Below are positions 10,705 through 59,790 of a stretch of DNA of 64,000 nucleotides, piece by piece. Numbering within the stretch: position 1 is the stretch's first letter; each line of letters opens with the position of its first letter. The notes beneath the pieces are model-generated. The model was not told the origin of the DNA and searched no databases. It saw nothing but the letters and a program-made list of their open reading frames with translations. Made by a program: the position numbers and the translations under genes. The DNA comes from Cinnamomum chago (Eukaryota; Streptophyta; Magnoliopsida; Laurales; Lauraceae), in contig CP142452.1 in NCBI GenBank assembly GCA_038049695.1, forward strand, positions 28,012,501-28,076,500. Reading direction: 5' to 3'.

Positions 10705-13700
10705 TGTTAGGAATTTTCTAGATTGCAATTTGATGGATGCATTATCATTCAAAGCATCATTTGATTTACACACTTGCATTGGTTTTAAATAAACTTGAAA
10801 TCTTGTTTTATTCATGCATTGCTTTTAAGATTTGTAAAAGTATTGATTTATGCATGATTTGTTTTTTCATCTTGGATGCATTTGATTTAGAAAAGAGTTT
10901 TCAAGAAATCAAGCAAGCCTTTGTTTTAAAAGTTTTGAAACTTTTTAGGCTTTTTATGTCATGTTTTAAAAACCTTTAAAATCTTTAAAACATGTTTTCC
11001 AAGCTTGATTTAGTGGCCAAAAGGTCCCCCAAAGAAATAACTTTGAAAAGTGCAAAAGTTGGAAATTTTGCAAAAAGGGGGTTGTCCCGGCAGTGTCGTC
11101 GGTCGACCGAGAGGCAGGTCTCGGTCGACCGAGACAACTGCAGGCAAAAATTGCCTGGGAGCACCAACGGTCAGAAATATGACCGTTGTGTGTTCTCGGT
11201 CGACCGAGGCCTGTTTCTCGGTCGACCGAGAACTAGCCGTTGGCCACTTTTCCCTATAAAAATGTTTTTTTTTCCCTTGCCTCATTGCACCACTCTAAGT
11301 CTTTTCCAAGTTATATCTTCTAGAGTTGGTGAGTCCTCAAAGTGTTCTCTCATGGACAACCTTTTCAAGACCTTAGGTGTATTTTCAAAGGTAGACTATT
11401 TGAGTAACCTTAAGGCCTTGATACCCCTAGACCAACCTATTCTTTTTAGTTATATCTATTTGTTGGTCTTGATACATTTGCATTTTGTTTCTTTATAGTC
11501 ACATCTTTTAAAATGCAATGTTTCTTTGTGATCATTTGATTTTGTCTTCATGATCTTTTAAGTTATATCTCATGGTTTTCAAAATCCTTTGATTGCAATT
11601 CTTTCATGATGGATTTGCATGTTGTTCATTTAGTAATATCTCTTGTTGTGCATATCTATTCATGATCAATTGATTGTGATTACAAATGCTTTCATAGCTA
11701 GTTTTTCATGATCAATTGATGTTGGAAAATCATTTGATGATTGTCATAATTATATCCTTTTTGAATCAAATGATTTGAATCTATTTAAGTTTTCCATTGA
11801 TTTTCAAGTTATATCTCTTGATATGGAAATTTGTAAGTGTCTATTGTTTTTAGATATTGAAAACTTTACAATAGTACACTTCTTGTTTTTCAAAGTCACT
11901 TGCTCTTAATTCTATAAATGATTCTTTGTTGAAATTTCATACATTGAAGTGATTTGAAAAACTTTGGAAAATGTTCTAAGCTTTATTAGTTATATTTATA
12001 GAAGCATTTTCCTTGAATTTATTTCCTTGTGCCTAATTATGATTGTATCATTTGGAAGGAAATAATTTTTACAAACATTTTGCATCTTTGCTCATTGAGT
12101 TACATTCTTTATGCAAATTGATTTTGTTGTCTTACATTGCATGGTTGGATATGTTTTCATTGATTTGCATGTTTGTGCCTTAACTTGGTATATGTTTTCA
12201 TTAATGCAAATTGATGAGTGTTTATGTGCTTTATAGTAAAATCTTGTATTTGAGCTTTTTAAGTACATTTGTGATTTAATGTGCTAAGTTCATTTGGTGT
12301 AAACCCCATATCTTTTTCCATTGCATTGTAAGCTTAGTACATTTGCTAAGAGTGGAGATGTTACATGATAGCTTAATGGATCATTTTAGATGAATTGGAA
12401 TTAAACCATTGTTCTTAATAGGTATATCCATTTATGTGGTCCATCTTCATCTTTATGTGATCCATGATGTCTCTCTAACTTCATACCTTCTTGTGCTTAC
12501 ATAGTTATATTCTTTATTGATGATATGGTATGAGTTAGATCTTGAGTGTTGATTGATCCTCTCTATGCAAATGTCAAAGTGTTCTATGTATGGTTGTGAT
12601 CTTAGTTCTATTTGTTGAAACCATACTAGAACTCAAATCCATCCTCTATGCTTTATAGTCATTTCTTTTTGGATGGTTATGATGTTGATTCATGTATATG
12701 CTATAAGTGGTATCAGAGCGGGTTACTCCATTTTAGGGCTTAACAACCCGGAGTTGATCCTTGCTAGATTTGGACCCTAGTGTTGTGATTTATTGCATAT
12801 CTTTTTAAAGATTTCCACTATGTTTGAAAATGTTCTTTCCCTTGCCAAAAGTTGGGAATTTTTAACCCCTCCTTGAGAGGATTTGAGGCATATCAAAAGG
12901 GAAGAGAACCAAGGGATGAAGGGGAAGATTAGGAAAGCTAAAGCTTGGATTAATGAAGTTAAACCACCAAGTAGGCTCTTCCTTTCTTAATCATATGTTT
13001 GCATGCTTTTGTTTTATTTTTGGTAAATCATTTCTAGCATGTTAAACTATGTTTGTGTTGTGTCCTTAACATATTTTATGTTTTGAGTTGATTTATTGTT
13101 TTGGATACAACATCATATGATTCAATCCAAGTAGTACTTGAATTGGTAAATCAAAGTAGATCATGTTAATGAAAGAAACTTGGTAAATCATATGTAACAT
13201 GATTCCTATACTTGGTTGAATCTTTGGTTGTTGTTTTCCATCATAAGAAAATCACTTTCAAAAGTATCTTATGTTTTGGACTCAACTTCTTTACAAATCA
13301 TATGTTTTCATGTTTTGTTTTATCATTGGTAAATCTTAATAACATGTTAACCTATGATGTGTTGTATCCTTAGCATGTGTTATATTTTGAATAGATCTAT
13401 TGTTTTGGATACATCACCATTGATTCATCAAAGTAGTACTTTATCTTTGGTAAATCTAAGTAGATCATGTTAATGAAATATGTAACATGATTCATATACT
13501 TTGTTGAATCATTGGTTGTTGTTTTTCCATCATAAGAAAATCTCTCTCAAATGTATCTTATGTTTTGGATTCAACATCATTACAAATCATATGTGTATTA
13601 TTGTTTTAAAGTTTCACAACTTGCATCACTTTGATAGGTAAATCATTTTCAAGTTGTATTTATAATTACATATGATTTGTCCCCTCTTTTCAATCAAATC

Positions 13701-13806
13701 TATTTTTATGTTTTGAGCTTCATTGGTGATTTGATTGACATCCCTATGCATCACATGTTTAGAGCTAATCCATTTCATACAACTTGTGTAACTTTGATAT
13801 CATCCT
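10705..13806 (+). mobile_element. 5' LTR of element E, 3' end deleted
   Basis: It matches 15332-18433 almost base for base, then breaks at the sequence GATATCAT and continues with internal spacer sequence (CCTAATACATGTTTCAAC). The missing part is the LTR end, the primer-binding site and whatever followed. Promoter palindromes lie at about 11095-11235 and the TATA box at 11255. Four open frames inside it are repeated exactly in the 3' LTR and are not genes. Confidence 0.9.
11282..12846 (+). other. 1.56-kb insert inside the LTR of element E (first copy)
   Basis: Relative to the other copia LTRs, the sequence just after the TATA box is interrupted by about 1565 bp, bounded by the imperfect direct repeat AAAATGTT(C)TTTCCCTTGCC (ending 11282 and 12846). 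The first part is homologous to the hairpin spacer at 51926-52763. The last part begins at 12709 with TGGTATCAGAGCGGGTTACT, a primer-binding-site motif. The same insert is at 15909-17473, so it was part of the LTR before this copy inserted. Confidence 0.8.
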
Positions 13807-15331
13807 AATACATGTTTCAACTTCATAGTAGTGATCTTGATCATATGAAACTCTTTGAAATCCATTCCTCATATTTCTATGTGTTTGATGGATAACTTAG
13901 ATGTTGAATTCATATGATTTAGTCACTTTATAAATTGCATGCATTTCAAAGTCATATCTTTTTGCATTGCAATTTCTCTTGTTCATCACTATGCTCAATA
14001 GTTATATCTTTAAAAGTGATGAATATGCATTTATGATGCTTGATGGAATTTTGTCACATTCTTGCTCTTTATCATGTTATCAAATTCAATTGGTTTCATT
14101 TGGTATAATGTTTGATTGATTTGATTTCTTGTGAATGTGATAAATCTTGTGTGCATTGGATTGAACTTGATAAGTAATATGATTGTTCCATGTCACACAC
14201 CATTAGCATCATAATGTTCATGTTGCCACCTCTTTTGCTCTTATAGGTATATCTCATGACCACCATGTTTATGTGTTCATAATATTGGTTGGTTATTAGT
14301 TGAGGTTGGCTTCATGTTTGAATTTCTTTTCACTCTTTCATGCACCTTAATAAGTCATATTTATTGATTGAATGAAATGATTTTCAAAATCTTACATAGC
14401 ATATGATTTTCATAAGTAATATTGATTGATGCTATGTTTGAGTAAACCCCATATCATGGATAGCTCTAATTTGGATTTTTCCTAATAGGTATATTTTTAA
14501 ATCCATTTTAGAGTGATTGATTTAAATAGTCATATCCTAAATCTCAATTGGTATTCTTTGTCTTTCCAATTGATATCCATGATGGCTTTTCCCATAGACC
14601 TTGCTTTCTTTTGGCAATTTGATCATATGAGCTTGATAGTTAAATGAATCTAATCCTTTCTTTGAAGTTGACCCTCACTTGGTTAAACCATCTTCTTCTT
14701 GTACCTAATAGTTAAATCTTTGTCAAAAGTTTGACAAAAGAAGAGAATGGATTGAGGGGGAGTGTAAACCTTCATAGGAAGTATTAGTTGTGATCAAATT
14801 GACCCTAGGATTGCCTTTGAACCCTTAGAGACTACTACCTCACATGATAGCCTGTTATGTATTTCATTTTCGATTTCATTTGTTAACAGGTGCTACTAAA
14901 GGTATTTTCCTTATTTCATGTGTGTAGGTACCTTTGCAATTTAATGGCAAAGGGGGAGAAATTATGCAAGTTCTCAAAAGGGTGAAGAGAATGTCCAAGC
15001 TTCCTAAGGGGAGAGTTGTGTATGATCTTCTACAAAGGGAGAGAATGCATACCTTGCCAAAGGGAGAAAGAGGCATGGTCAAAGGGGGAGAGCAAATAGA
15101 AGAAAGAAAGCCTGGAGTTAAAGAAGATGCTTGGATAAAGAAAGAAAGAAGAAAGAAAGCTTGAAGGTTGATCAAGCTCCAAGCATCATGAAGATTGAAG
15201 TCCAAGAGCCCAAGCTATGAGAAGAAGCATCCAAGAAGATTTCAAGCCTTGTCCAGCTGAGGGGGAGCTGAAGACTAAGTGTGTATTGTCAGTGGTGAGT
15301 GTGTTTGCCATCAAATTGCAAAGGGGGAGAT
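13807..15331 (+). mobile_element. Internal remnant of element E: hairpin spacer and polypurine region
   Basis: 13807-14880 is homologous to the second half of the spacers at 52769-53870 and 55600-56720 and is full of inverted repeats, for example CTCTAA-TT-TGGATTT with AAATCCA-TT-TTAGAG (14464-14513) and ACATAGCAT with ATGCTATGT (14394-14437). 14881-15331 carries about seven purine tracts such as CAAAGGGGGAGA. The last of these, at 15318-15331, abuts the 3' LTR. No coding domain is present. Confidence 0.82.
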
Positions 15332-18300
15332 TGTTAGGAATTTTCTAGATTGCAATTTGATGGATGCATTATCATTCAAAGCATCATTTGATTTACACAC
15401 TTGCATTGGTTTTAAATAAACTTGAAATCTTGTTTTATTCATGCATTGCTTTTAAGATTTGTAAAAGTATTGATTTATGCATGATTTATTTTTTCATCTT
15501 GGATGCATTTGATTTAGAAAAGAGTTTTCAAGAAATCAAGCAAGCCTTTGTTTTAAAAGTTTTGAAACTTTTTAGGCTTTTTATGTCATGTTTTAAAAAC
15601 CTTTAAAATCTTTAAAACATGTTTTCCAAGCTTGATTTAGTGGCCAAAAGGTCCCCCAAAGAAATAACTTTGAAAAGTGCAAAAGTTGGAAATTTTGCAA
15701 AAAGGGGGTTGTCCCGGCAGTGTCGTCGGTCGACCGAGAGGCAGGTCTCGGTCGACCGAGACAACTGCAGGCAAAAATTGCCTGGGAGCACCAACGGTCA
15801 GAAATATGACCGTTGTGTGTTCTCGGTCGACCGAGGCCTGTTTCTCGGTCGACCGAGAACTAGCCGTTGGCCACTTTTCCCTATAAAAATGTTTTTTTTT
15901 CCCTTGCCTCATTGCACCACTCTAAGTCTTTTCCAAGTTATATCTTCTAGAGTTGGTGAGTCCTCAAAGTGTTCTCTCATGGACAACCTTTTCAAGACCT
16001 TAGGTGTATTTTCAAAGGTAGACTATTTGAGTAACCTTAAGGCCTTGATACCCCTAGACCAACCTATTCTTTTTAGTTATATCTATTTGTTGGTCTTGAT
16101 ACATTTGCATTTTGTTTCTTTATAGTCACATCTTTTAAAATGCAATGTTTCTTTGTGATCATTTGATTTTGTCTTCATGATCTTTTAAGTTATATCTCAT
16201 GGTTTTCAAAATCCTTTGATTGCAATTCTTTCATGATGGATTTGCATGTTGTTCATTTAGTAATATCTCTTGTTGTGCATATCTATTCATGATCAATTGA
16301 TTGTGATTACAAATGCTTTCATAGCTAGTTTTTCATGATCAATTGATGTTGGAAAATCATTTGATGATTGTCATAATTATATCCTTTTTGAATCAAATGA
16401 TTTGAATCTATTTAAGTTTTCCATTGATTTTCAAGTTATATCTCTTGATATGGAAATTTGTAAGTGTCTATTGTTTTTAGATATTGAAAACTTTACAATA
16501 GTACACTTCTTGTTTTTCAAAGTCACTTGCTCTTAATTCTATAAATGATTCTTTGTTGAAATTTCATACATTGAAGTGATTTGAAAAACTTTGGAAAATG
16601 TTCTAAGCTTTATTAGTTATATTTATAGAAGCATTTTCCTTGAATTTATTTCCTTGTGCCTAATTATGATTGTATCATTTGGAAGGAAATAATTTTTACA
16701 AACATTTTGCATCTTTGCTCATTGAGTTACATTCTTTATGCAAATTGATTTTGTTGTCTTACATTGCATGGTTGGATATGTTTTCATTGATTTGCATGTT
16801 TGTGCCTTAACTTGGTATATGTTTTCATTAATGCAAATTGATGAGTGTTTATGTGCTTTATAGTAAAATCTTGTATTTGAGCTTTTTAAGTACATTTGTG
16901 ATTTAATGTGCTAAGTTCATTTGGTGTAAACCCCATATCTTTTTCCATTGCATTGTAAGCTTAGTACATTTGCTAAGAGTGGAGATGTTACATGATAGCT
17001 TAATGGATCATTTTAGATGAATTGGAATTAAACCATTGTTCTTAATAGGTATATCCATTTATGTGGTCCATCTTCATCTTTATGTGATCCATGATGTCTC
17101 TCTAACTTCATACCTTCTTGTGCTTACATAGTTATATTCTTTATTGATGATATGGTATGAGTTAGATCTTGAGTGTTGATTGATCCTCTCTATGCAAATG
17201 TCAAAGTGTTCTATGTATGGTTGTGATCTTAGTTCTATTTGTTGAAACCATACTAGAACTCAAATCCATCCTCTATGCTTTATAGTCATTTCTTTTTGGA
17301 TGGTTATGATGTTGATTCATGTATATGCTATAAGTGGTATCAGAGCGGGTTACTCCATTTTAGGGCTTAACAACCCGGAGTTGATCCTTGCTAGATTTGG
17401 ACCCTAGTGTTGTGATTTATTGCATATCTTTTTAAAGATTTCCACTATGTTTGAAAATGTTCTTTCCCTTGCCAAAAGTTGGGAATTTTTAACCCCTCCT
17501 TGAGAGGATTTGAGGCATATCAAAAGGGAAGAGAACCAAGGGATGAAGGGGAAGATTAGGAAAGCTAAAGCTTGGATTAATGAAGTTAAACCACCAAGTA
17601 GGCTCTTCCTTTCTTAATCATATGTTTGCATGCTTTTGTTTTATTTTTGGTAAATCATTTCTAGCATGTTAAACTATGTTTGTGTTGTGTCCTTAACATA
17701 TTTTATGTTTTGAGTTGATTTATTGTTTTGGATACAACATCATATGATTCAATCCAAGTAGTACTTGAATTGGTAAATCAAAGTAGATCATGTTAATGAA
17801 AGAAACTTGGTAAATCATATGTAACATGATTCCTATACTTGGTTGAATCTTTGGTTGTTGTTTTCCATCATAAGAAAATCACTTTCAAAAGTATCTTATG
17901 TTTTGGACTCAACTTCTTTACAAATCATATGTTTTCATGTTTTGTTTTATCATTGGTAAATCTTAATAACATGTTAACCTATGATGTGTTGTATCCTTAG
18001 CATGTGTTATATTTTGAATAGATCTATTGTTTTGGATACATCACCATTGATTCATCAAAGTAGTACTTTATCTTTGGTAAATCTAAGTAGATCATGTTAA
18101 TGAAATATGTAACATGATTCATATACTTTGTTGAATCATTGGTTGTTGTTTTTCCATCATAAGAAAATCTCTCTCAAATGTATCTTATGTTTTGGATTCA
18201 ACATCATTACAAATCATATGTGTATTATTGTTTTAAAGTTTCACAACTTGCATCACTTTGATAGGTAAATCATTTTCAAGTTGTATTTATAATTACATAT

Positions 18301-19110
18301 GATTTGTCCCCTCTTTTCAATCAAATCTATTTTTATGTTTTGAGCTTCATTGGTGATTTGATTGACATCCCTATGCATCACATGTTTAGAGCTAATCCAT
18401 TTCATACAACTTGTGTAACTTTGATATCATTAACAAGTTGTTACTTTTAACATGTGATTGCATTATATCCTCAATCATAAATGTTTTTGAGCTAAAACTT
18501 TCAAAAGCCTTAGGCATACATTTATGAGCTTTCATTTTCAAAATGATTGAGGACCACACACACACACTTCATTTGTTTTCATCTTTGCATTCATAGTGTG
18601 AGTGTGTATTTGTATTTCACTTCCATATCCGCCTATTTAAGAGGCAATGTAATGAGCTTAATAGAATCTCCATCAAGTGTATGTAAGACACTAACTTAGT
18701 GAGATAACCAACCTTGTGGTTGAAGAGGTTATTGCTTAGCCTATGAAAGCATAATGGATAGGTTGATGTTAAGCCTTGAAAAACATCAATGTAAAGGTTA
18801 TTGCTTAGCCTTGGAAAGCATATTGTAAAGGTTATTGCTTAGCCTATTGAAAAGCATAAATAGTGGAAATCCGGTGGGGTGTTGGATCACAAGCCGGTAG
18901 TGGATGTAGGCATTGAGGCCGAACCACTATAAATACTTGTGTGATGGTGCTTGCTTTGTGGTGATTGTTTTTATTAGCTTCCGCATATTGTTTGATAATC
19001 ATCACTTATGACTAGTTTGTTTTAAAGAAGTTAAAATTGTTAAAATTGGTCATAAAAGAAGCTCACCCTATTCACCCCCCCTCTAGGGTTCGGATCCAGG
19101 TGGAATTACA
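15332..19110 (+). mobile_element. 3' LTR of element E (3.78 kb)
   Basis: It starts TGTTAGG directly after the polypurine tract and ends ACA at 19110 before the TSD. It is twice the length of the other copia LTRs because of the insert at 15909-17473. A TATA box is at 15882. The U5 hairpin array is at 18720-18860, including one unit with the stem TTGATGTT/AACATCAA. The final bases (CTCTAGGGTTCGGATCC) match the other copia LTRs but the very end differs. Confidence 0.9.
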
Positions 19111-22060: not shown

Positions 22061-22257
22061 GTCTATATCTGAAATATAGAAATAAATTTTTTGAAGAATA
22101 ACAGAAAACTATGTTTTTAGAATAAGCAAATAATGCCATATAGATGAAAACAAAAATAAAAATCAATGTTTTATGTGGGTCACGAAATGTAACTGAAAAA
22201 ATAAAAACCACTCTATCTTTCAACATATTCATAAAACAAAAACCTTTGGAATGTTCA

Positions 22258-22378
22258 GACCTGAATGTCCGAACAAAAGGAACTTGTTCGGATATTAGTT
22301 TTCGAACAAATACATTTCGTTCGGACCTTAGTTTCCGAACAAATACCCTTTGTTCGGACATTCAGGTCCGAACAAAGG
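22258..22378. repeat. Nested CCGAACAA hairpins upstream of the PMD pseudogene
   Basis: A 20-bp perfect inverted repeat (22258-22277 with 22349-22368) encloses two further TTGTTCGG/CCGAACAA pairs. The core motif is the same as in the hairpins at 19797-19921 on the other side of the pseudogene. Confidence 0.85.
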
Positions 22379-22385
22379 GGATATG

Positions 22386-46807: not shown

Positions 46808-46812
46808 AAGAC

Positions 46813-46955
46813 GGTAAGGCTTGTAGTTTTTTTCCCGAGTAGGGTTTTCCACGCATACATCGTGTGTCATTCTCATTGTGTGGTTGCTTGCTTTTGAATC
46901 TGGATTAGTATTAATTACTAGTTTAATCACTTGGTTTGGAAATCTAATAGAGATA
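46813..46955 (+). mobile_element. Copia LTR end (U5), resumed
   Basis: CCCGAGTAGGGTTTTCCACG at 46836 is the U5 phrase usual in plant copia LTRs. It continues the LTR interrupted at 44050. The exact end and primer-binding site are too decayed to place. Confidence 0.5.
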
Positions 46956-47481
46956 TTGTTATTGGAACCTAAGCCTGAGTCAAGGCTGATTTTTCATTTC
47001 TCATTGTTGTTATCTTCCTCTATTTTGGGGCAAAGCCAAATATCTCTCCACATGTCCACTGTTAGATTGATCACGGGTAAAATCAATTACAATACATAAT
47101 AACATATGATGAAACCTAGTGCATTGGTGGGCCCATGTGTGCAATGCACATCGCTCAAATGTCACTGTACTCAACTTGATGGAGTGGCCCAAATTTCACT
47201 TCCAATGGGGTTGAGCTCACTTTGGGAGTGAAATTATGTGGCAGCACACCATCAATCTGATGGTGGTCTCAACTTTATCTAGAGTGAAGGAATATCTCAT
47301 CGCTTATGCTAACCCTAGGTGATGCTATAGCACTATGAATTCCACTAGAGACCGGTTCAGCCCCCAAACAGAGTGTTTCAAGCTTTTTTGGGGGCATACT
47401 CCATGTGTTGTCTAAACATCAGTCTAGACTTCCTATGTAGTTGCATTTCAAGAGGTATCCTATAAAAGTGCCTTTAATTTT
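46956..47481. other. No gene seen
   Basis: Unassigned intergenic DNA without repeats I could recognise. Confidence 0.5.
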
Positions 47482-48109
47482 GGGAGCTTCTGTTGGCACC
47501 CAAGAAATTGCTCCCCCCATACCAAAAAAAAAAAAAAAAAGAAATTTCCTTACCTAAATTACCCTTCCTCCTTCCCCACCTTCCCCCCCTCCACCCTCCT
47601 CCCTCCCTCCCTCCCCTCCCACCCTCCCATTCGCCGACTAGGAGGGAGACCAACTGGCAGTCCCTGGTGGCAACCCCGTCCAGCCTCCTTACCTCCTCTT
47701 CCTCCCTCCTCCACCTTCCCTTTCCTCTTTTCTTCTTCTTCCTCCCTCCCTCCCTCTCTATTCTCTCTCTTCCTTCCTCCCTCTCTATTCTATCTCTCCC
47801 TATCTCTCCCTCCCTCTTCATCTCCCTCCCACAGCGACGTCCGAAAGGGCGGCCTTCGGATGTTGCTATGGGAGGGAGAGAGAAAAAGAGGAGGGAGGGA
47901 AGAAGAGAGAGAACAGAGTGGGAGAGAAGGGGAGGGAGGCCGTTCGGGACTGGCTTCCGGCTGGTCTCCCTCTCAGCCGGTGACTGGGATCGGGGGGAGA
48001 GGGAGGAGGGTGAAGGGGGCAAAGGAGGAAGGAGTAGGAGTAATTTAGGAAAAAAATGATTTTTTTCTGTATGTGAAAAGTATTTTTCGGTGTGCCAGTA
48101 GAATGTCCC
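47482..48109. mobile_element. Fold-back (MITE-like) element with long inverted arms
   Basis: The left end GGGAGCTTCTGTTGGCACC pairs with the right end, which in reverse reads GGGACATTCTACTGGCAC. The left arm is a long C/T tract with CTCC repeats and the right arm a G/A tract. The centre is the palindrome GCGACGTCCGAA...TTCGGATGTTGC (about 47834-47869). Flanks TTAATTTT and TTAGTTTT suggest an 8-bp duplication with one mismatch, compatible with a hAT-like origin. Two overlapping open frames (47474-48022 minus and 47493-48059 plus) are products of the simple sequence. Confidence 0.78.
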
Positions 48110-48638
48110 TTAGTTTTTTACTCCTAAGTAAATACTAGCTCTAATCTAATATTTGATTGCTCTCTTCTCTTATTTAATGAACACAAAAGGTAATGGGCAA
48201 AAGAGGGTATGATGGAACTTGAAAGTTGTAAAAATAAATCTAAGTGCAACTTATTCGAGGATTTGGCCCACGATAAAGTTGAAATGGGCGAAAAATCATT
48301 CATGTCACTAACCCAACACACACGGTTGGATTAGGCTTTCACGGTGATGATGATTAATGACAACATTTAATGGTATAAAAATTTTGTCCCACAAATAGTT
48401 CTACTCTACCGGGCAGGATCACAGAATTCTGGGATTATTTTGACAATAAAAATCAATCATTATCAAAGCCTTGTCCCAACTATGTTGAGGTCGGCTACAG
48501 GGATTCTGTTTCTCACAATCAATCATTATTTGACAATAAAAACCCGAAATAAAATAATTGGGATTTTAGACGATCCAAACGTTAGATGTTTCATTTAAAA
48601 ATTTATTAGTATAAGATGTTAAGCACACACCACTACAG
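48110..48638. other. Intergenic, holds a short SINE fragment
   Basis: Apart from the SINE fragment at 48464-48516, I see no gene or repeat here before the copia LTR. Confidence 0.5.
48464..48516 (+). mobile_element. 5'-truncated Au-like SINE with 13-bp TSD
   Basis: CCTTGTCCCAACTATGTTGA followed by GGTCGGCTACAGGGATTC matches the 3' part of plant Au SINEs as I remember it. The 53-bp piece is flanked by AATCAATCATTAT at 48451-48463 and 48517-48529. The long duplication fits LINE-mediated retroposition. Confidence 0.68.
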
Positions 48639-50412
48639 TGTTAGGAATTTTGTAGATTGCAATTTGATGGATGCATAATCATTCTAGCATAATTTGATTT
48701 ACACACATATGCATTGTTTTAGATAAACTTGAAATCTTGTTTTATTCATGCATTGCTTTTAAGATTTGTAAAGGTTTTGTTTTATGCATGATTTGCTTTT
48801 AAAACTTGGATGCATTTGTTTTTTAAAAGAGTTTTAGAAATCAAGCTAGCCTTTGGTTTTAAAGTTTTGAATCATTTTAGGCTTTTTATGTTTCATGTTT
48901 TTAAACATCTTAGAATGATTTAAATCATGTATTCAAGCTTGATTTAGTGGCCCAAAAAGTTCCACAAAGAAAACCTTCAAATATGCAAAGTTGGAATTTT
49001 TGGTGATCCCGGCAGTGTCGCCGGTCGACCGGCCCAGAGGTCCCGGTCGACCGGGAACACTGCAGGCAGAAAGTGGCCTGGCGCACCAACGGTCATATTT
49101 CTGACCGTTGTGTGATCCCGGTCGATCAAGACCTGTTTGCAGGTCGACCGGGGACTAGCCGTTGGGCACTTTTTGCTATAAAAATGAGTTCTTTCCTTTG
49201 TCAAAGGTTGGAGATTTTGAAGACTCTTTTGAGGAGCTTTGAGACAAGACAAAGGGGATGAACTAAGAGAGACCAAAGAGTCATTTGGTGAGCTAAAGCT
49301 TGGATTAATGAAGTTAAATTTCTAAGTAAGCTCTACCTCTCTTAATCATAGTTTACATGCTTTGTTTAAGTTATTGGTAAATGATTTTGAGCATGATAAC
49401 TATGATGTGATGAATTCATTCTTCTCTCAATCTTTGATCTAATTAAGATTGGATTCTTCACTTTGTTTTCATCCAAGTAGTTTTTAAAACTTTCTTAATC
49501 ATGCTTAGTCTAAATCTTTGATTTCTTTTATATAGCATGATTCTTTTTCTTGGTTGAAACATTACTTGTTGTTTTCATTCACTTAAACATTAGTAAAATT
49601 AATTTGGTTTTGAAAACAACATTGCACATGCATCACATGTTCTAAGTTAGTCATTTTCATACAACTTGTGAGTCTTTGATTTTCATGTCATTAACAAGTT
49701 GATGTTCATACATGTGATTTGCATTAGACTTCAATCAAATCTTTCATGAGCTTTAAACTTTGAAATGCTTTAAGCATATATTTGATTGAGCTTTCTTTTT
49801 AAACTTGATTGAAGTTATCACACACAAACATCATGAGCATGCACATTTTCATTCATTTAGTGTTTGTGTGAGTTTGTTATTCACTTTCATATCCGCCTAT
49901 TTTAGAGGCAAATACATTGTGCTTAATTTGTATCTCTTAGAGTGATCTTTTGTGAAGACACTTTCTTAGAGAAATCTTCATTTGTAAAGGTTATTGCTTA
50001 GCCTAAGAAAAGCATTGTGTAAAGGTTATTGCTTAGCCTAAGAAAAGCATCTTGTAAAGGTTATTGCTTAGCCTAGAAAAGCACATTGAGAGGTTGTTGT
50101 TTAGCCTAGAAAAACAACATTGTAAGGGTTATTGCTTAGCCTAGTAAAAAGCATAAATAGTGGAAATCCGGTGGGGTGATTGGATCACAAGCCGGTAGTG
50201 GACGTAGGCATTGAGGCCGAACCACTATAAACCTTGGTGTTGTGGTGCTTGCTTGTGGTGATTCATTTGTTAGCTTCCGCATCTTGTATGGTATATCATC
50301 ACATGTGACTAGTTTATGTTAAGAAGTTAAAATTGGTCTAAATTGGTTACAATTGTAGCTCACCCTATTCACCCCCCCCCCCCCTCTAGGGTTAGGATCC
50401 CAAGGACTTTCA
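48639..50412 (+). mobile_element. LTR1 of element C
   Basis: It begins TGTTAGGAATTTTGTAG and ends GGACTTTCA. Its U3 is like that of the solo LTR at 25647-27843. GTCGAC palindromes lie at 49022-49150, the TATA box near 49180, and the U5 hairpin array at 49983-50155. An imperfect primer-binding site follows. Confidence 0.9.
49983..50155 (+). repeat. U5 hairpin array of LTR1
   Basis: Five units follow one another. Three use the stem TGCTT/AAGCA, one uses GTTGTTT/AAACAAC (50096-50102 with 50112-50118), and the last returns to TGCTT/AAGCA. The loop stays close to AGCCTAGAAA. It lies in the transcribed leader just upstream of the primer-binding site. Confidence 0.8.
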
Positions 50413-50414
50413 AT

Positions 50415-50427
50415 TGATATCAGAGCC
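50415..50427 (+). promoter_or_regulatory. Primer-binding site after LTR1 (one mismatch)
   Basis: TGATATCAGAGCC lies two bases after the LTR end. The standard initiator-Met site TGGTATCAGAGCC, seen intact after LTR2, has G where this has A. Confidence 0.85.
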
Positions 50428-50512
50428 ACGTGCTCTATCTTTTAGGATCAAGTGTTTGGAACTCTTGATTAGGTGTAAAAACCTAGAGTCAAAACCCTAG
50501 AGTTGTCCTTGC

Positions 50513-51925
50513 ATGAAATTCATTAGAATGGACTCCACTATGCTAGACTTTGTAGATTCTTCTAGACCCCTCATTCTTCCTTCTATTGGAGATTCAAACC
50601 CTCAATTAAATGAATATCAATTTGATTCAAAAGAGGAAGAAAATGAGTATGATGAAGATGATCTTCAACAAGCCTATAATGAATTATATACATTATCTTC
50701 AAAGCTTGATAAGAGAAATAAAAGTTTAAAAGAAGAATCAAATAGACTAAACAAAGAACTAGTCTCTTCAAAAGATGAACTTAGAGAGAAAGAAGAAGTA
50801 ATAAATTGTTTAGAATCTAAGTTCATGATCTCTTTAAATAATCTATCTAACATTCAAGATGAACTAAAAGAATTAAAGATGGATTATGATAATGTCAATA
50901 AGGAAAATTTAAATCTAAGAGATCAAATAAAAAGGCAAGACAAAGACTTTAGCAATTTAGAAGCCAAGTTGATTAAAAGTAAGTTAAAAACCAAAGAACT
51001 TGGATCTAATGTTGTTAATGAACTAAAACTTGAATTAAAACTTGCCAATGAAGAGCTAAGCAAATATAAGGAAATTGAAAATGAACTTTCAAAAGTCAAA
51101 AATGAAAATTCAATCCTTATAACCAAAGTCACTCAACTTGAAGGGTATAAACAAAAGTATGAGTGCAAGTTTACCCAAAGTGAAGAAAGACTTGAAAAAT
51201 TATTTAAATTGGGTAAATCTCATGGAGATAGGACGGGTCTTGGATTTAATAGGAATATGTCATATGACCCTAAATTCACCAACACTTTTGTGAAAGGTGA
51301 GTCCTCCTTCTCTAGCACTCTTTCTCCAATGTCCAAAACTAAATGTCATTATTGTGGTAAAGTAGGACATTTCAAATTTGAGTGCAAACTAAGAAGAAGC
51401 CATGTGTCTAAACCCCTCCTTGAACCCAAAAAGGTAGAATCTAAATCTATGAAGGGTAAGACACTAAAAATCAAAGAAGACTCCAAAAAGACTAAACAAG
51501 TTAAATCATTTAAAATGGAGTCTCCTAAGATAGATTCTAAAAAGTTTAAACAAGGTAAACCAAGTTTCAAAGAATCTATAAACAAAAAGCATCTCAACCT
51601 ATCTCCCTTATATCAACCCATGAAAGAACTTTTGGATAAAGTAACAAAGTTAAATTTAAAATTCAAAAGTCAAGTAAAGGGAGAAAATAAGAAGAAGAGA
51701 AAAGTGAAACAATCCCCTAAGAAACAAACTCACCAACATCAAAAGACTAATCACCAATCTAAGTTAAATTTAGTGAAATCTAAATATCATGGTGATAAGT
51801 TTAAATTGAAAATTTATCAAGTCAAATCTCCTATAGTTGGTGAGAAGTCCAAACTAGACCTCAAAGTTCAACCCTCTCAAGACCTTAGGTGGATTCCTAA
51901 AGTTATTTACCTAGCCAAACCTTAA
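50513..51925 (+). CDS. gag: Gag-like protein: coiled coil, CCHC knuckle, basic tail
   Basis: This is an intact 470-codon frame beginning 86 bases after the primer-binding site, with in-frame Met at residues 1 and 6. Residues about 40-235 are Lys/Glu/Leu-rich and should form a long coiled coil. GDRTGLGFNRN (about 243) is the conserved block before the knuckle in Sirevirus Gag. The zinc knuckle CHYCGKVGHFKFEC is at 278-291. The remaining 180 residues are strongly basic (Lys/Ser/Gln) and end with DLRWIPKV, the type of segment that precedes protease in Sireviruses. The N-terminal capsid-like (UBN2/DUF4219) region of ordinary Sirevirus Gag is absent. It would bind RNA and self-associate through the coil. 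It stops where pol should begin and is followed by the hairpin spacer. Confidence 0.85.
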   Translation: MKFIRMDSTMLDFVDSSRPLILPSIGDSNPQLNEYQFDSKEEENEYDEDDLQQAYNELYTLSSKLDKRNKSLKEESNRLNKELVSSKDELREKEEVINCLESKFMISLNNLSNIQDELKELKMDYDNVNKENLNLRDQIKRQDKDFSNLEAKLIKSKLKTKELGSNVVNELKLELKLANEELSKYKEIENELSKVKNENSILITKVTQLEGYKQKYECKFTQSEERLEKLFKLGKSHGDRTGLGFNRNMSYDPKFTNTFVKGESSFSSTLSPMSKTKCHYCGKVGHFKFECKLRRSHVSKPLLEPKKVESKSMKGKTLKIKEDSKKTKQVKSFKMESPKIDSKKFKQGKPSFKESINKKHLNLSPLYQPMKELLDKVTKLNLKFKSQVKGENKKKRKVKQSPKKQTHQHQKTNHQSKLNLVKSKYHGDKFKLKIYQVKSPIVGEKSKLDLKVQPSQDLRWIPKVIYLAKP

Positions 51926-53870
51926 GGCCTTGAACCTCTTTGACCAACCTATTCTTTTTAAGTTAAATCACTTTGTTGGTCATGTTGCTTTGCATTTTGT
52001 TCTTTCTTAGTTACATTTATTAAAATGCATTGTTTCTTTATGATCAATTGATTTTGTTTACATGCACCATTCTAGTTACATATCATGGTTTTCAAAATCT
52101 TTTGATTATAATTTCATCATGTTTGATTTGCTTTTTGTACACATATGTCTTGCATTGCATTTCTTTACATGATTAATTGATTGTGTTTTTAAAAGCTTTC
52201 ATAGCTAATTTATTCATGATCAATTGTTGTTGAATCATTTGTGTAGATGTCTTGGTAAGATTATTTGAACAAATGATTTGAATCAATTCAAGTTTTTCCA
52301 TGGATTTCTAAGTTATACTTTTATATGGAAAATCATTGTTTTGAAAAATCAACTTGTACGTGTTTCATTTAAGTTATATCTTTTAAAATACAATGTTGAA
52401 AATTGATCTTCAAAATCATTCTTTTTATGCTCATTGTTGGATTTTGTTTATCAAAATGATTTGAAGATTGTATGAATGGAAATGCTCTATAACATCATTA
52501 GTTATATTCATCTAAGCATGTTCCATGTTCTCATTTCCTTTTCTTTTGGTTTCATTGTCTTAGAATTGGAAATGAATGTTGTTTGCATCTTTGCTTATTT
52601 AGTTATTCTTTTTATATGCAAATGACAATTGGTTCCATGTATGGTTGTGATCTTAGTAATATTTGTAGAAACCATACTAGAACCCAAATCCATCCTCTAT
52701 GCTTTCTAGTCATATTTTTTTTTGGGATGGTTATGATGTTGATTCATGTATTTTCTCTAAGTGATATCATCCTCATACATGTTTCAACTTCATAGTAGTG
52801 TTCTTGATCATATGAAACTCTTTGAAATTCATTCCTCATATTTCTATATGTTTGATGGATATCTTAGATGTTGAATTCATATGATTTTGACACTTTGAAA
52901 ATTGCATGCATTACAAAGTTATATCCTTTTGCATTGCAATTTATCTTGTTCGTCACTATGCTCATTAGTCATATCTTTAAAAGTGATGAATATCCATTTA
53001 TGATGCTTGATGGAATTTTGTGTTTGTCACATTCTTGCTCTTAATCATGTTGTCAAATTCAATTGGTTTCATTTGGTATAATTTAAGATTGATTTGATTT
53101 CTTGTGATTGTGATAGACTTTGTGTACATTGGATTGAGCTTGATAGTTACATATTTGTTCCATGTCACACACCATTAGCATCATAAATTTCATGTTTGCC
53201 ACCTCTCTTGCTCATATTGGCATATCTCATGACCACCATGTTTATGTGTTCATAATATTGGTTGGTTATGAGTTGAGGTTGGCTTCATGCTTGAAATTCA
53301 TTTCACTCTTCTTGCACATGATAGTCATATCTTTTGATTGATTGAAATGATTTCAAAACTTACATAGCATATGATTTTCATAGTAAAATTATTTAATGCT
53401 ATGTTGAGTAAACCCCATTGCATCATGGATAGCTCTAATTTGGATTTATCCTAATAGTTATATTTTTAAATCCAGTTTAGAGTGATTGTGTTTAATAGTC
53501 ATATCCTTAAATCTCAATTGGTATTCTTTGTTTTTCCAATTGGTATCTATGATAGCTTTTCTCATTGACCTTGCTTTCTTTTGGTAATTTGATCATATTG
53601 AGCTTTATAGTTAAATGAATCTAATCCTTCTCTTGAAGTTGACCCTCAATTGGTAAAACCATCTTCTTCTTGCACCTAATAGTTAAATCTTTGTCAATAT
53701 GTTGACAAAAGGAGAGAATGGATTGAGGGGGAGTGTAAACCTTCATAGGAAGAATTAGTTTTGATCAAATTCACCCTTGGATTGACTTTGAGCCCTTAGA
53801 GATAACTTCCATACATGATAGCCTGTTATGTATTTCATTTTTTATTTCATTTATTAACAGGTGCTACTAA
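51926..53870 (+). other. Hairpin-array spacer 1 replacing pol
   Basis: No coding motif is present. The sequence is a succession of inverted repeats 50-110 bp apart, most with a loop resembling AGTTATATCT. Examples are TGACCAAC/GTTGGTCA (51941-51982), AATCATTTGT/ACAAATGATT (52233-52278), TTCGTCACT/AGTGATGAA (52949-52990) and ACATAGCAT/ATGCTATGT (53362-53404). It is homologous to 54752-56720, to 11420-12708 and to 13807-14880. Confidence 0.8.
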
Positions 53871-53929
53871 AAGGTATTTTCCTTGTTTCATGTGTGTAGG
53901 TACCTTTGCAATTTAATGTCAAAGGGGGA

Positions 53930-54751
53930 AAATTCAATCCTTATAACCAAAGTCACTCAACTTGAAGTTTACAAACAAAAGTATGAGTGCAAGTTTACCC
54001 AAAGTGAAGAAAGACTTGAAAAATTATTTAAATTGGGTAAATCTCATGTAGATAGGACGGGTCTTGGATTTAATAGGAATATGTCATATGACCCTAAATT
54101 CACCAACACTTTTGTGAAGGGTGAGTCCTCTTTCTCTAGCACTCTCTCTCTCAAATGTCCAAAACAAAATGTCATTATTGTGGTAAAGAAGGACATTTCA
54201 AATTTGAGTGCAAACTAAGAAGAAGCCATGTGTCTAAACCCCTCCTTGAACCCAAAAAGGTAGAATCTAAATCTATGAAGGGTAAGACACTAAAAAACAA
54301 AGAAGACTCCAAAAAGACTAAACAAGTTAAATCATTTAAAATGGAGTCTCCTAAGATAGATTCTAAAAAGTTTAAACAAGGTAAACCAAGTTTAAAAGAA
54401 TCTATGAACAAAAAGCTTCTCAACCTATCTCCCTTATATCAACCCATGAAAGAACTTTTGAAGAAAGTTACAAAGTTAAATCTAAAATTCAAAAGTCAAA
54501 TAAAGGGAGAATATAAGAAGAAAAGAAAAATGAACAAATCCCCTAAGAAACAAACTCACCAACATCAAAAGACTAATCACCAATCTAAGCTAAATTTAGT
54601 GAAATCTAAATATCATGGTGATAAGTTTAAATTGAAAATTTATCAAGTCAAATCTCCTTCAGTTGGTGAGATATCCAAACTAGACCTCAAAGTTCAACCC
54701 TCTCAAGACCTTAGGTGGATTCCTAAAGTTATTCACTTAGACAAACCTTAA
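53930..54751 (+). pseudogene. Second, partial gag copy (duplicated, frameshifted)
   Basis: This repeats the gag sequence from 51105 to 51925 after a junction in AAAGGGGGAAAATTCAATCC. A one-base insertion near 54150 splits it into two frames (53883-54218 and 54155-54751). The second frame keeps the knuckle CHYCGKEGHFKFEC and the basic tail and ends IHLDKP. It lacks the coiled-coil part and has no promoter or initiation context of its own. Confidence 0.88.
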
Positions 54752-56720
54752 GGCCTTGAACCTCCTTGACCAACCTATTCTTTATAGTTAAATCATTTTG
54801 TTGGTCATGTTGCATTTGCATTTTGTTTCTATATAGTTACATCTATTTAAATGCATTGTTTCTTTATGATCAATTGATTTTGTTTTCATACACCATTCTA
54901 AGTTACACTTCATGGTTTTCAAAATCTTTTGATTATAATTTCATCATGTTTGATTTGCTTCTTGCACACATATGTCTTGCATTGCATTTCTTTATATGAT
55001 TAATTGATTGTGATTTTAAAAGCTTTCATAGCTAATTTATTCATGATCAATTGTTGTTGAATCATTTGTGTAGATGTCATAGTAAGATTGTTTGAACAAA
55101 TGATTTGAATCAATTCAAGTTTTTCCATAGACTTCTAAGTTATATTTTTATATGGAAAATCATTGTTTTGAAAAATCAACTTGTATGTGTTTCAAGTAAG
55201 TCATATCTTTTAAAATACAATGTTGAGAATTGATCTTCAAATTCATTCCTTTTATGCTTATTGTTGGATTTTGTTTATCAAAATGATTTGAAGATTGTTT
55301 GAATGGAAATGCTCTATAACCTCATTAGTTATAATCAACTAAGCATGTTCCATGTTCTCATTTCCTTTTCTTTTGGTTTCATTATCTTAGAAATGGAAAT
55401 GTATGTTGTTTGCATCCTTGCTTATTTATTTACATTCTTTTTATATGCAAATGACTATTGGTTCCATGTATGGTTGTGATCTTAGTTATATTTGTAGAAA
55501 CCATACTAGAACTCAAATCCATCCTCTATGCTATCTAGTGATATCTTTTTGGATGGTTATGATGTTGATTCATGTATTTTCTCTAAGTGATATCATCTTT
55601 ATACATGTTTCAACTTCATAGTAGTGTTCTTGATCATATGAAACTCTTTGAAATCTATTCCTCATATTTCTATATGTTTCATGGATATCTTATATGTTGA
55701 ATTCATATGATTTTGACACTTTGGAAATTGCATGCTTTTCCAAGTCATATTCTTTTGCATTGCAATTTACCTTGTTCATCACTTTGCTCATTAGTTATAT
55801 CTTTATAAGTGATGAATATCCATTTATGTTGCTTGATGGAATTTTGTGTTTGTCACATCCTTGCTATTAATCATGTTGTCATATTCAATTGGTTTCATTT
55901 GGTATAATTTTCCATTGATTTCATATCCAATTGATGTCTTATCTTGTGTATGTGATAGACCTTGTGTACATTGGATTGATCTTGCTAGTTATATGTTTTC
56001 ATTCAATGTCACACTCCATTAGCATCATAATTTTCATGTTTGCCACCTCTCTTGCTCATATAGGTAAATCTCATGACCACCATGTTTATGTGTTCATAAT
56101 ATTGGTTGGTTAATTGTTGAGGTAGGCTTCATGTTTGAACTTCATTTCACTCATCTTACACTTTAATAAGTCATATTTATTGATTGAGTGAAATGATTTC
56201 AAAACTTACATAGCATATGATTTTCATAGTTAAATTGTTTAATGCTATGTTGAGTAAACCCCATTGCATCATGGATAGCTCTAATTTTGATTTTTCCTAA
56301 TAGTTATATTTTTAAATCCATTTTAGAGTGATTGTGTTTAATAGACTTATCTTTAAATCTCAATTGGTATTCTTTGTTTTTCCAATTGGTATCCATGATT
56401 GCTTCTCTCATTAGACCTTGCTTTCTTTTGGTAATTTGATCATATTGAGCTTTATAGTTAAATGAATCTAATCTTTTCCTTGAAGTTGACCCTCAATTGG
56501 TTAAACCATCTACTTCTTGAACCAAATAGTTATATCTTGTCAAAAGTTTGACAAAAGAAGAGAATGGATTGAGGGGGAGTGTAAACCTTCATAGGAAGTA
56601 TTAGTTTTGATCAAATTGACCCTTGGATTGCCTTTGAACCCTTAGAGATAACTCCCATACATGATAGCCTGTTATGTTTTTCATTTTCGATTTCTTTTGT
56701 TAACAGGTGCTACTAAAAGG
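54752..56720 (+). other. Hairpin-array spacer 2
   Basis: Homologue of 51926-53870 with scattered substitutions and small indels. It keeps the same inverted repeats, for example TGACCAAC/GTTGGTCA (54767-54807) and a 12-bp perfect TCATTTCACTCA/TGAGTGAAATGA pair (near 56142-56202). Confidence 0.8.
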
Positions 56721-57194
56721 TATTTTCCTTATTTCATGTGTGTAGGTACCTTTGCAATTTAATAGCAAAGGGGGAGAGAGCATTCAAGTACTCAAAGATC
56801 TCCTACTCTTCAAAGGGGGAGAGAGCATTCAAGTTCTCAAAAGGGTGAAGAGAATGTCCAAGTTTCCTAAGGAGAGTTGTGTATGATCTTCTACAAGGGG
56901 AGAGAATGCATATCTTGCCAAAGGGAGAGAGTGGTCAAAGGGGGAGAGCTTATAGAAGAAAGAAAGCTTGGAGCTAAAGAAGATGCTTGGCCATAGAGAG
57001 GAAGATGAAAAGAAAGCTTGAAGAATGATCAAGCTCCAAGCATCAAGAAGATTGAAGAAAAGAGCCCAAGAGCCCAAGCTAAGAGGAGGAGCATCCAAGA
57101 AGATTTCAAGACTTGTCCAGCTTAGGGGGAGCTGAAGACTTGGTGTGTTATTTCAATGATGAGTAAGTTGCCATCAAATTGCAAAGGGGTAGAT
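56721..57194 (+). promoter_or_regulatory. Multiple polypurine tracts before LTR2
   Basis: AAAGGGGGAGAGAG-type tracts occur at 56767, 56813, 56937 and 57124, and the final one is GCAAAGGGGTAGAT (57181-57194) abutting LTR2. Repeated polypurine tracts near the 3' LTR are a reported Sirevirus trait. The last tract has one G changed to T compared with the other elements. Confidence 0.78.
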
Positions 57195-58945
57195 TGTTAG
57201 GGATTTTGTATTTGCAATTTGATGGATGCATTTTCACTTTAGCATCATTTGATTTACACACACTTGCATTGTTTTAGAAAACCTTGAAATCTGGTTTTAT
57301 ACATGCATTGCTTTTAAGATTTGTAAAAGTATTGTTTTATGCATGTTTTGTTTCTAAACTTGGATGCATTGGTTTTAAAATTCAAACTCTTTTGAAATCC
57401 TAATTCTTTGTGCATTACTTTTGAGAAATCATATTGAGAATTTAGGTTTGTGTCTTGCATACATTCATCACCTTCAGAATCATCTTTGTATGCATTTTCA
57501 TATGAGAAAAGAGTTTTATCAAATCAAGCTAGCCTTTGGTTTTAAAGTTTCAAATCATTTTAGGCTTTTTGTGTTTCATGTTTTTAAACATCTTCGTTTG
57601 ATTTAAAACATGTTACCAAGCTTGATTTAGTGGCCCAAAAATCCCCACAAAGAAACACCTTCAATTAAGCAAAATATGGGAATTTTTTATCCAGGGGGTG
57701 GTCCGGCAGTGTCGCCGGTCGACCGGCCCAGAGGTCCCGGTCGACCGGGAACATTGCAGGCCATCTGGGCCCCTGGAGCCCCAACGGTCATTTTTCTGAC
57801 CGTTGTGTGATCCCGGTCGACCGAGACCTGTTTGCAAGTCGATCGAGGACTAGCCGTTGGACTGTTTTCTTGTATAAAGTCCATTCATTTCCAACCCTTT
57901 TCAATGCTTGATACATGAACTTTTGAGACCATTTTGGAGCCAAAGAAAGGGGAAGAAGTTGGAAAGGCTAGAGGGCTATTTGGAAATCAAATACTTGAGT
58001 TTTAAAAAGGTACATCTTACTTATCATTTTGATTTCCATTAAAAGTAGAATCAATGCATGTTTAAATCTTTGTATTTTCATTGATGCATGATTTCTAGCT
58101 TTTAAAGAGTTGTTTTGCAAACTCATTATCATCATTGGTATATTAGAATGGTTTGCAATCACTCTTATCTAAATCACATGTGTTCTTAGACTTTAATATT
58201 CATACAACATGTTTTAGTTCATTTCTTTAAGTTGTGTGAATCTTTCATGTGATTAGCATTTACCTTCAATCATCATTTTATAAGCTTTGATTTTAAAATG
58301 CATCATGCATTCATTTAAGAGCTTCATTGTAGAAATTGATTGAAGTAAAGCATTCATACACTTGTGCACACACTTTAGCATATTTGAGTGTATGTTTGTA
58401 ATTTGTATTACACTTTCATATGAGCCTATTTAGAGGCAATACAATTGTGCTTAAATTGTATCTCTTAGAGTGATCTTTTGTAAAGACACCTTCTTAGAGA
58501 AATCTTTATTTATAAAGGTTATTGCTTAGCCTAAGAAAAGCATCTTGTAAGGTTATTGCTTAGCCTAAGAAAAGCATTGTGTAAAGGTTATTGCTTAGCC
58601 TATAAAAGCACATTGAGAGGTTGTTGTTTAGCCTAGAAAAACAACATTGTAAGGGTTATTGCTTAGCCTGGTAAAAAGCATAATTAGTGGAAATCCGGTG
58701 GGGTGATTGGATCACAAGCCGGTAGTGGACGTAGGCATTGAGGCCGAACCACTATAAACCTTGGTGTTGTGGTGCTTGCTTTTGTGGTGATTGTTTATAT
58801 TAGCTTCCGCATATTGTTTGATTAATCATCACATGTGACTAGTTTTTGTTAAGAAGTTAAAATTGTTTTTAATTGGTCACAATTGTAGCTCACCCTATTC
58901 AACCCCCCCCCCCCCCCTCTAGGGTTAGGGTCCCAAGGACTTTCA
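57195..58945 (+). mobile_element. LTR2 of element C
   Basis: It runs from TGTTAGGGATTTTG to GGACTTTCA. Its U3 has a block (57375-57500, CAAACTCTTTTGAAATCC onward) shared with element B's LTR but absent from LTR1. GTCGAC palindromes lie at 57717-57845, the loop-inverted palindrome at 57782-57805 and U5 hairpins at 58515-58680. Confidence 0.9.
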
Positions 58946-58947
58946 AT

Positions 58948-58960
58948 TGGTATCAGAGCC
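58948..58960 (+). promoter_or_regulatory. Primer-binding site after LTR2 (initiator-Met)
   Basis: TGGTATCAGAGCC follows the LTR end by two bases and matches the plant initiator-Met site exactly. Confidence 0.92.
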
Positions 58961-59046
58961 TCGTGCTCTATCTTATAGGATCAAGTGTTTGGAACTCTTG
59001 ATTAGGTGTAAAAACCTAGAGTCAAAAACCCTAGAGTTGTCCTTAC

Positions 59047-59538
59047 ATGAAAATCATTAGGATGGACTCCACTATGCTAGATCTTGTAGATTCTTCTAGA
59101 CCCCTCCTTCTTCCTTCTATTGGAGATTCAAACCCTCAATCTAATAAATCTCAATGTGACATAAAAGAAGAAGATTTTAATGAAAATGAGGAAGATCTTC
59201 AATAAGCCTTTGAGGAATTATATGAATTATCCTTAAAGACTGAACAGAAAAACAAAAAGTTAAGAGAAGAATCTAAAAGACTAAACAAAGAGCTAGTCTC
59301 TTCTAAAGATGAGCTTAGAGAGAAAGAAGAAGTAATACAATGTCTAGACTCTAAGTTCATGATCTCTTTGAATAACCTTCATAATATTAAAGATGATCTA
59401 AATGAATTAAAAATTGAAAATGATGATCTTAATAAGGAAAATTCAAATCTAAGAGATCAAATAAAAAGGCAAGACAAAGACTTTATCAATTTAGAAGCCA
59501 AGTTGATTAAAAGTAAGTTAAAAACCAAAGAACTTAGA
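59047..59538 (+). pseudogene. Third gag copy, N-terminal part only
   Basis: It starts MKIIRMDSTMLDLVDSS and keeps the coiled-coil region to KTKELR, then joins directly to LTR sequence at 59539. A CAA codon of the first gag copy is TAA here (near 59202), giving an internal stop. The knuckle, tail and spacer are deleted. Confidence 0.88.
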
Positions 59539-59790
59539 TAATCCGGTGGGGTGATTGGATCACAAGCCGGTAGTGGACGTAGGTATTGAGGCCGAACCAC
59601 TATAAACCTTGGTGTTGTGGTGCTTGCTTTTGTGGTGATTGTTTATATTAGCTTCCGCATATTGTTTGATTAATCATCACATGTAACTAGTTTTTGTTAA
59701 GAAGTTAAAATTATTTTAAATTGGTCACAATTGTAGCTCACCCTATTCACCCCCCCCCCCCCTCTAGGGTTAGGATCCCAAGGACTTTCA
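59539..59790 (+). mobile_element. LTR3 fragment (last 250 bp of LTR)
   Basis: The sequence from AATCCGGTGGGG to GGACTTTCA is nearly identical to 58689-58945, with a few single-base changes. The junction with gag shows short homology (AATCC). It is the right end of the composite. Confidence 0.9.

Follow-up and report, generated by a model that had tools for sequence, protein, structure and literature searches.

An LTR retrotransposon in the 64,000-nucleotide stretch of Cinnamomum chago DNA analysed here (the window) carries many hairpins built to one plan: the arms differ from hairpin to hairpin, and a loop of roughly 20–30 nt holds an RGTNAWATC-like word. Computation showed that this plan is repeated on the sense strand only, that pairing is specific to each hairpin and that the arms are conserved between copies. 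The most likely reading is a selected sense-RNA structure that presents a repeated word to a putative RNA-binding protein.

The element that hosts the array (48639-58945, + strand) consists of a 5' LTR, a primer binding site (PBS), a Gag-like ORF, the hairpin array, a tail, a tandem duplicate, PPTs and a 3' LTR. The 5' LTR (TGTTAGG...TTTCA; 48639..50412) contains CGGTCGACCG palindromes, a TATA box, poly-C near its end and many inverted repeats, and the PBS TATCAGAGC follows at 50418..50426. The tandem duplicate (53928..56775, 93% to 51104-53929) includes the 3' part of gag, a second array (array 2, 54752-56550) and the tail. An inverted repeat, CCATCAAATTGCAAA / TTTGCAATTTGATGG, spans the PPT/3' LTR junction (57171..57225), where the terminal PPT is altered in this main copy. 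The 3' LTR (57195..58945) differs from the 5' LTR by large indels and matches it at 88.6, 85.1 and 84.9% over three blocks; because the two LTRs are of different subfamilies, the copy looks composite. Downstream of the 3' LTR, 58946-59792 holds a second PBS and the interrupted beginning of a gag, after which comes a final LTR piece; these are remnants of a tandem or recombined element. Tandem repeats of ~35 bp (TAAAGGTTATTGCTTAGCCTAAGAAAAGCAT...) lie near the LTR end at 49982-50155 and 58513-58669, and each can form a small TGCTT/AAGCA hairpin. Elsewhere in the window, there are two arrays of ~155–160-bp tandem repeats (3178-3856 and 5804-6671), and positions 7350-7470, ahead of a further related LTR (7770-9474), hold a tail resembling the post-array tail (77%). 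Since this array-type tail adjoins a related LTR, relatives of the element that lack the array may exist.

According to the available sections of Bousios et al. (2010; PMC2829016), Sireviruses are recognised by the PBS TATCAGAGC and by several PPTs, which have an AT/TG junction and, at the last of them, a surrounding inverted repeat; in their LTRs, CGG-CCG palindromes precede the TATA box and a poly-C stretch lies close to the end. The PBS occurs twice, at 50418 (after ATTGA) and 58951 (after ATTGG), the Sirevirus context being after CA/ATTGG. PPT copies AAGGGGGAGA lie at 56768, 56813 and 56938 in the main element and at 14950, 15082 and 15321 in a second element described below; the AT/TG junction is intact at PPT 15321, and the inverted repeat around the last PPT is present. 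CGG-CCG (RM) palindromes precede the TATA box at 49022, 49044, 57716, 57738 and 57814, among others, and poly-C lies close to the LTR ends at 50372 and 58903. Judged on its PBS, PPT and LTR sequences, the element carries the hallmarks of a Sirevirus (Ty1/copia, Pseudoviridae). It differs from Sireviruses in being without pol, in having a Gag-like ORF without a recognised capsid domain and in its internal hairpin array; as pol is absent, RT-based placement in the Sirevirus clade is impossible. The words 'hairpin' and 'stem-loop' do not occur in the available text of PMC2829016, and no such array is mentioned there.

The Gag-like ORF (50513..51925, + strand) encodes 470 aa with a zf-CCHC zinc knuckle that barely passes the Pfam cut-off (21.1 vs 20.8 bits). 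A Pfam search at E<=1 recognised no capsid domain in this ORF or in its two long relatives, P0001 and P0002, which are 53 and 56% identical to it by BLASTP. These were among four relatives found in 7994 scored candidates; they start at a similar place and, like the ORF, end at ...LRWIPKxxxLxK(P/Y). Synonymous and nonsynonymous substitutions between the gag copies in the window numbered 14:18 and 26:37 (the second comparison also has a stop); these counts hint mildly at past constraint on the ORF. A degenerate pol in 51926-53870 was rejected on the ORF listing, which had no ORF of at least 100 aa there. The initial annotation had described the array as replacing pol, and this holds for its position only: the array may be a linker domain left over or expanded after pol loss, and the LTR leaders and gag have similar hairpins. 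LARDs have a long internal region without coding domains, and conserved RNA structure has reportedly been proposed for them; the element departs from this class by its 470-aa Gag-like ORF. TR-GAG elements are defined in the accessible part of PMC6022998 by LTRs plus gag only; the ORF here has a zinc knuckle and showed no capsid domain at E<=1. Unlike both classes, the element has 1.8 kb of structured non-coding sequence after a gag without a recognised capsid domain.

A second element (10705..19110, + strand) carries further copies of the array. It is flanked by a GAGAC target-site duplication (10700-10704 and 19111-19115), and within 10705-13803 a single position distinguishes its LTRs, the other listed difference (10704) belonging to the flank; the insertion is therefore recent. 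The first part of the array is copy A (11414..12712, + strand), which lies within the LTR after the TATA box and is repeated at 16041-17342, and the second part is copy B (13795..14740, + strand), which is internal. The 5' LTR is cut short and fused to the array, with no PBS or gag in between. The two array-piece junctions (12705-12715 and 13795-13803) coincide with a single loop word, at 52760 in array 1. At one of them AGTG is joined to the PBS word GTATCAGAGC, and at the other TGATATCAT is shared. These junctions are possible template switches at a loop.

Within the 1.8-kb array 1 (51926..53720, + strand, as are all hairpins below), the hairpin TGACCAAC/GTTGGTCA (51941..51982) presents the word AGTTAAATC, TGCATTTT/AAAATGCA (51991..52029) the word AGTTACATT and TTTTCCAT/ATGGAAAA (52294..52332) the word AGTTATACT. 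The hairpin AATCATTTGT/ACAAATGATT (52233..52278) has a weak word, GGTAAGATT, and one compensating change relative to copy A; ATCTTCAAA/TTTGAAGAT (52406..52468) is without a word and has three such changes, its adjoining inner helix included. Further along, GTATGGTT/AACCATAC (52639..52677), CATGTAT/ATACATG (52745..52781, the site of both junctions of the second element) and AAATTGCA/TGCAATTT (52899..52942) carry AGTAATATT, AGTGATATC and AGTTATATC, respectively. The word AGTCATATC is found both in TTCGTCACT/AGTGATGAA (52949..52990), which contains one G-U pair, and in TCATTTCA/TGAAATGA (53298..53350); ACATAGCAT/ATGCTATGT (53362..53404) and TGGATTTA/TAAATCCA (53441..53474) have AGTAAAATT and AGTTATATT. 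A word hairpin of the gag ORF, AGACTCCA/TGGAGTCT (51478..51523), holds AGTTAAATC at 51499, and two LTR-leader hairpins, ATCATGTTA/TAACATGAT (13160..13203) and ACAACTTG/CAAGTTGT (13616..13657), hold TGGTAAATC and AGGTAAATC.

We counted inverted repeats with perfect arms of at least 8 and a loop of 3–50, with 100 dinucleotide shuffles as the control. Array 1 (51926-53720) contained 14, against a shuffle mean of 3.2 and maximum of 7; the corresponding values were 11, 2.8 and 8 for array 2 (54752-56550), 9, 1.9 and 7 for array A (11414-12710), and 6, 1.5 and 5 for array B (13800-14740). Perfect inverted repeats were thus about 4–5 times as dense as in shuffles in all four copies, and the initial annotation's description of a spacer filled with consecutive inverted repeats was borne out. 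Its confinement of the chain to 51926-53870 did not hold: the 5' LTR was equally rich (16 vs 2.1 in shuffles), gag had 5 vs 1.9, and the same word and geometry occur in the LTR leaders and gag. When the window was scanned in 1500-base segments, the excess largely tracked the element family, with exceptions in both directions that count against the reading. High-scoring non-element segments lay at 19501-22500 (z 6.5, 6.8), 33001-34500 (z 4.4), 46501-48000 (z 3.9) and 3001-6000 (z 3.4, 3.5), and low-scoring element segments at 25501-27000 (z 1.2) and 58501-60000 (z 0.7). Two self-inverted stretches, palindromes of ~124 bp at 19797-19919 and 22252-22374, partly account for the high counts outside the element.

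The array was rejected as a tandem repeat: Tandem Repeats Finder returned four rows for 48500-60000, and the sole array row was a 20-nt, 2.3-copy repeat at 55662-55708. Two matches to the RNA family mir-341 (E 0.06 and 0.33) fell in GC palindromes of the 3' LTR, far under the gathering score, and were judged to be chance. Across the arms of 20 hairpins, the mean longest common word was 2.98, compared with 2.53–2.93 in letter-shuffled arms, and three arm pairs had six or more letters in common. As the arms share slightly more than letter-shuffled arms, some hairpins may be old duplicates.

The word itself was then compared with chance. In array 1, 9 of 14 loops held a word with at most 2 mismatches to AGTNATATC (two nested repeats having one word in common), compared with 31% of length-matched random stretches of the array. 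The earlier claim that words fall in most loops therefore holds for array 1, with the qualification that five of the 14 repeats are without one, which we counted against the best explanation. Loop six-mers derived independently of the word had TTCTTT, AGTTAT and GTTATA at the top. For a flank-swap test, word sites were chosen by a fixed rule (19, 22, 14 and 10 sites in arrays 1, 2, A and B), and right flanks were exchanged among sites. Swapping destroyed the pairing: the real value was reached in 0 of 20,000 swaps in arrays 1, 2 and A, the results for the related arrays 1 and 2 not being independent, and in 70 of 20,000 in B. Under a strict geometry (7–14 nt ahead of the word, 2–9 behind, score at least 16), hairpins were detected at 10 of 19 word sites in array 1, 11 of 20 in array 2, 8 of 14 in A and 4 of 11 in B, while shuffled flanks gave expectations of 0.67, 0.51, 0.36 and 0.43, respectively. 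The same geometry applied to 3 of 8 sites in gag (0.12 with shuffled flanks) and to 4 of 14 in two LTR leaders (0.73), where the shuffle maximum was also 4 and the association is weak. Permutations reached the real value 216, 395 and 345 times in 5000 in three leaders; leader L8 showed no association between word and hairpin (2557 of 5000), and leader L57 offered one site only.

Run on both strands of the window, the strict detector returned 57 sense and 0 antisense hairpins in the element copies (23,466 bases) and 4 elsewhere (40,534 bases), with the pattern and geometry set after the arrays had been seen and the 57 including duplicated copies. Some of the sense hairpins are in LTR leaders, and three are in the gag ORF. 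Two other origins of the word were dropped: a tRNA primer site, on comparison by eye, as LTR variants are PBS-like (TGGTA...) and the array form AGTTATATC is unlike the PBS, and splice-site mimicry.

Folding energies counted against the reading. In 70-nt windows on the sense strand, the four arrays had mean z values of −0.31 to −0.58, and two non-element controls had 0.05 and −0.12. General folding was thus only slightly stronger than in shuffles, and the signal lies in the specific arms. When whole regions were folded, allowing pairs of up to 90 nt, in a comparison covering the arrays, gag and 5' LTR of the element, the arrays had z −5.4 to −11.1 in sense, with antisense alike, and values were also low for gag (−5.3) and the 5' LTR (−10.6). 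With folding at 25 C and 100 nt of flanking sequence per side, 13 of 14 array-1 hairpins averaged a pair probability of 0.8 or more in sense (the first had 0.19) and 11 of 14 did so in antisense; two of the three leader hairpins tested did so in sense. This near-equal antisense folding was counted against the best explanation, as was further loop closure in some best folds of twelve single hairpins, whose z values ranged from −1.25 to −4.64. The words were unpaired more often than AT-matched 9-mers: of 5000 draws, the observed mean was reached by 44 in array 1, 5 in array 2, 245 in A and 43 in B.

Array 1 was aligned with copies A and B, the pool being defined on array-1 hairpins, with hairpin 52582 outside the pooled stretches. 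The arms were identical at 206 of 216 positions, other loop positions at 138 of 168, the word at 83 of 99 and the sequence between hairpins at 883 of 1030 (arm vs between, Fisher p 3.9e-5). Judged by these alignments, the arms are constrained. Site by site, the word was no more conserved than the rest of the loop, a further point against the best explanation; by eye, its drift was mostly at its degenerate positions. The covarying pairs proposed earlier, TGACCAAC/GTTGGTCA (51941) against AGACCAAC/GTTGGTCT and AATCATTTGT/ACAAATGATT (52233) against AAATCATTTGAT/ATCAAATGATTT, are in the sequence, as is the 52949 hairpin TTCGTCACT/AGTGATGAA with its G-U pair. An automatic count from array 1 to A gave 23 unchanged, 1 compensating and 2 broken pairs; from A to array 1, 28, 2 and 8, the broken ones being mostly in hairpin 11632, which is missing from array 1; and, from array 1 to B, 53 unchanged pairs, 3 broken pairs and 1 with a one-sided change that preserved pairing. 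In 15 helices registered by hand between array 1 and A, with the diverged middle included and 13 positions left out because neither copy paired them, 102 pairs were unchanged, 7 had compensating changes, 4 had a one-sided change that preserved pairing, and 15, close to the ends of helices, were broken. In these hand-registered helices, changes on one side were associated with changes on the other (p 2.2e-4). Covariation between the arms is suggestive, resting on two copies and hand registration, with few compensating changes in the automatic count. Single mismatches in arrays 1, A and B included 4 G-T (1.9 expected from 12 shuffles) and 0 A-C (1.9 expected), array 2 had neither, which counts against the reading, and element-wide there were 22 G-T vs 7.8 and 10 A-C vs 5.2 (12 shuffles).

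Template-switch (quasi-palindrome) mutation during reverse transcription could keep the arms complementary in place of selection. It would likewise yield compensating changes, and switching seems to happen at the loop word where both junctions of the second element lie and brief stretches are shared (TGATATCAT; TATCA of the PBS). This origin leaves unexplained the common loop word, its one orientation, the fixed word–arm distance and the smaller change in the arms than in the remaining sequence, and we regard it as quite unlikely. The initial annotation's interpretation found partial support, a hairpin chain under structural selection being supported by the flank swap, arm conservation, the compensating changes (two copies, by hand) and the sense-only word hairpins.

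A role at the DNA level was also considered, in which the repeats would be palindromic cis-regulatory sites of the Sirevirus type. Palindromic RM boxes, clustered in Sirevirus LTRs (PMC2829016, available sections), are of the same lineage and are found in the LTRs here too. They are, however, a single GC-rich repeated sequence ahead of the TATA box, whereas the array hairpins are AT-rich and mutually different, with a large loop, lie in the transcribed region and carry the word in one orientation; such a role is very unlikely.

The earlier suggestion of a Dicer substrate is unlikely, since the stems are mostly 7–12 bp, with loops of 18–45 nt, and such stems are short for plant Dicer-like enzymes. 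Small RNAs are in excess on palindrome clusters of maize Sirevirus LTRs and on structured Copia regions (PMC10760457, accessible part); a small-RNA production substrate is nonetheless extremely improbable here.

Selected RNA structures could serve another role, helping to stabilise, export or dimerise the RNA or to translate it beyond the gag stop, and may be an amplified gag/pol-boundary inverted repeat. The first array hairpin starts 16 bases past the gag stop, the LTR leader has hairpins too, and Bousios et al. (2010; PMC2829016, available sections) mention that the gag/pol boundary of Sireviruses has a conserved inverted repeat. A single boundary repeat would not require dozens of copies with one loop word, and we consider this family of roles possible but doubtful.

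Our best guess, by analogy, is that the candidate word hairpins would act in packaging through Gag. The dispersed packaging signals of HBV are many stem-loops with different stems and a common -RGAG- loop motif (PMC7612645, in the part available), and a like claim has reportedly been made for enterovirus-E. The element RNA resembles these signals in its multiple stem-loops, unlike stems and common loop motif; it differs in its much larger loops and in being a retrotransposon rather than a virus with its own coat protein. In such viral systems the coat protein binds the loop motif, and assembly depends on it; any protein contact of the loops here is putative. In barley, the parasitic copia element BARE2 is packaged by others' Gag and keeps packaging and dimerisation signals (PMC3735527, accessible text). 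BARE2 is without Gag, unlike the element here, and the same text mentions no array of this kind. We ranked Gag packaging above other RNA roles, and these above template-switch mutation, because HBV signals have this anatomy and BARE2 keeps packaging signals without Gag.

On this reading, the sense-strand hairpins lie in the LTR leader, gag ORF and 1.8-kb array of a pol-less element that would depend on a helper. Their loop words would be repeated RNA binding sites, most likely for a Gag/nucleocapsid, which could be the helper's Gag or the element's own capsid-less zinc-knuckle protein acting as an adaptor. Binding may select for packaging an RNA unable to make its own particles, and unlike arms would stop the hairpins from pairing with each other and from being lost by between-repeat recombination. 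That the element is a pol-less, helper-dependent Sirevirus type whose words are putative protein sites for selective packaging seems to us a serious possibility that falls short of probable. More tentatively, a hairpin scaffold along the whole RNA, from the leader through gag to the 3' part, may be a retroelement form of dispersed packaging signals, with the capsid-less Gag-like protein linking the RNA to helper particles. The available part of PMC7765848 poses as an open question whether normal Gag and TR-GAG proteins interact.

No relatives were found in the viral contig, genome contig or plasmid collections searched. Our literature search, which most subscription papers lay outside, found no description of such an array, so that its absence from print is unproven. 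To our knowledge, little is known in plants of how non-autonomous LTR elements get their RNA selected for the particles of other elements. A short word shown many times on one RNA makes this question testable, since experiments can bind the word, delete it or place it in a different RNA. A pattern that proves true genome-wide would also be a clear example of selection for structure over an element's entire RNA, part of its coding region included.
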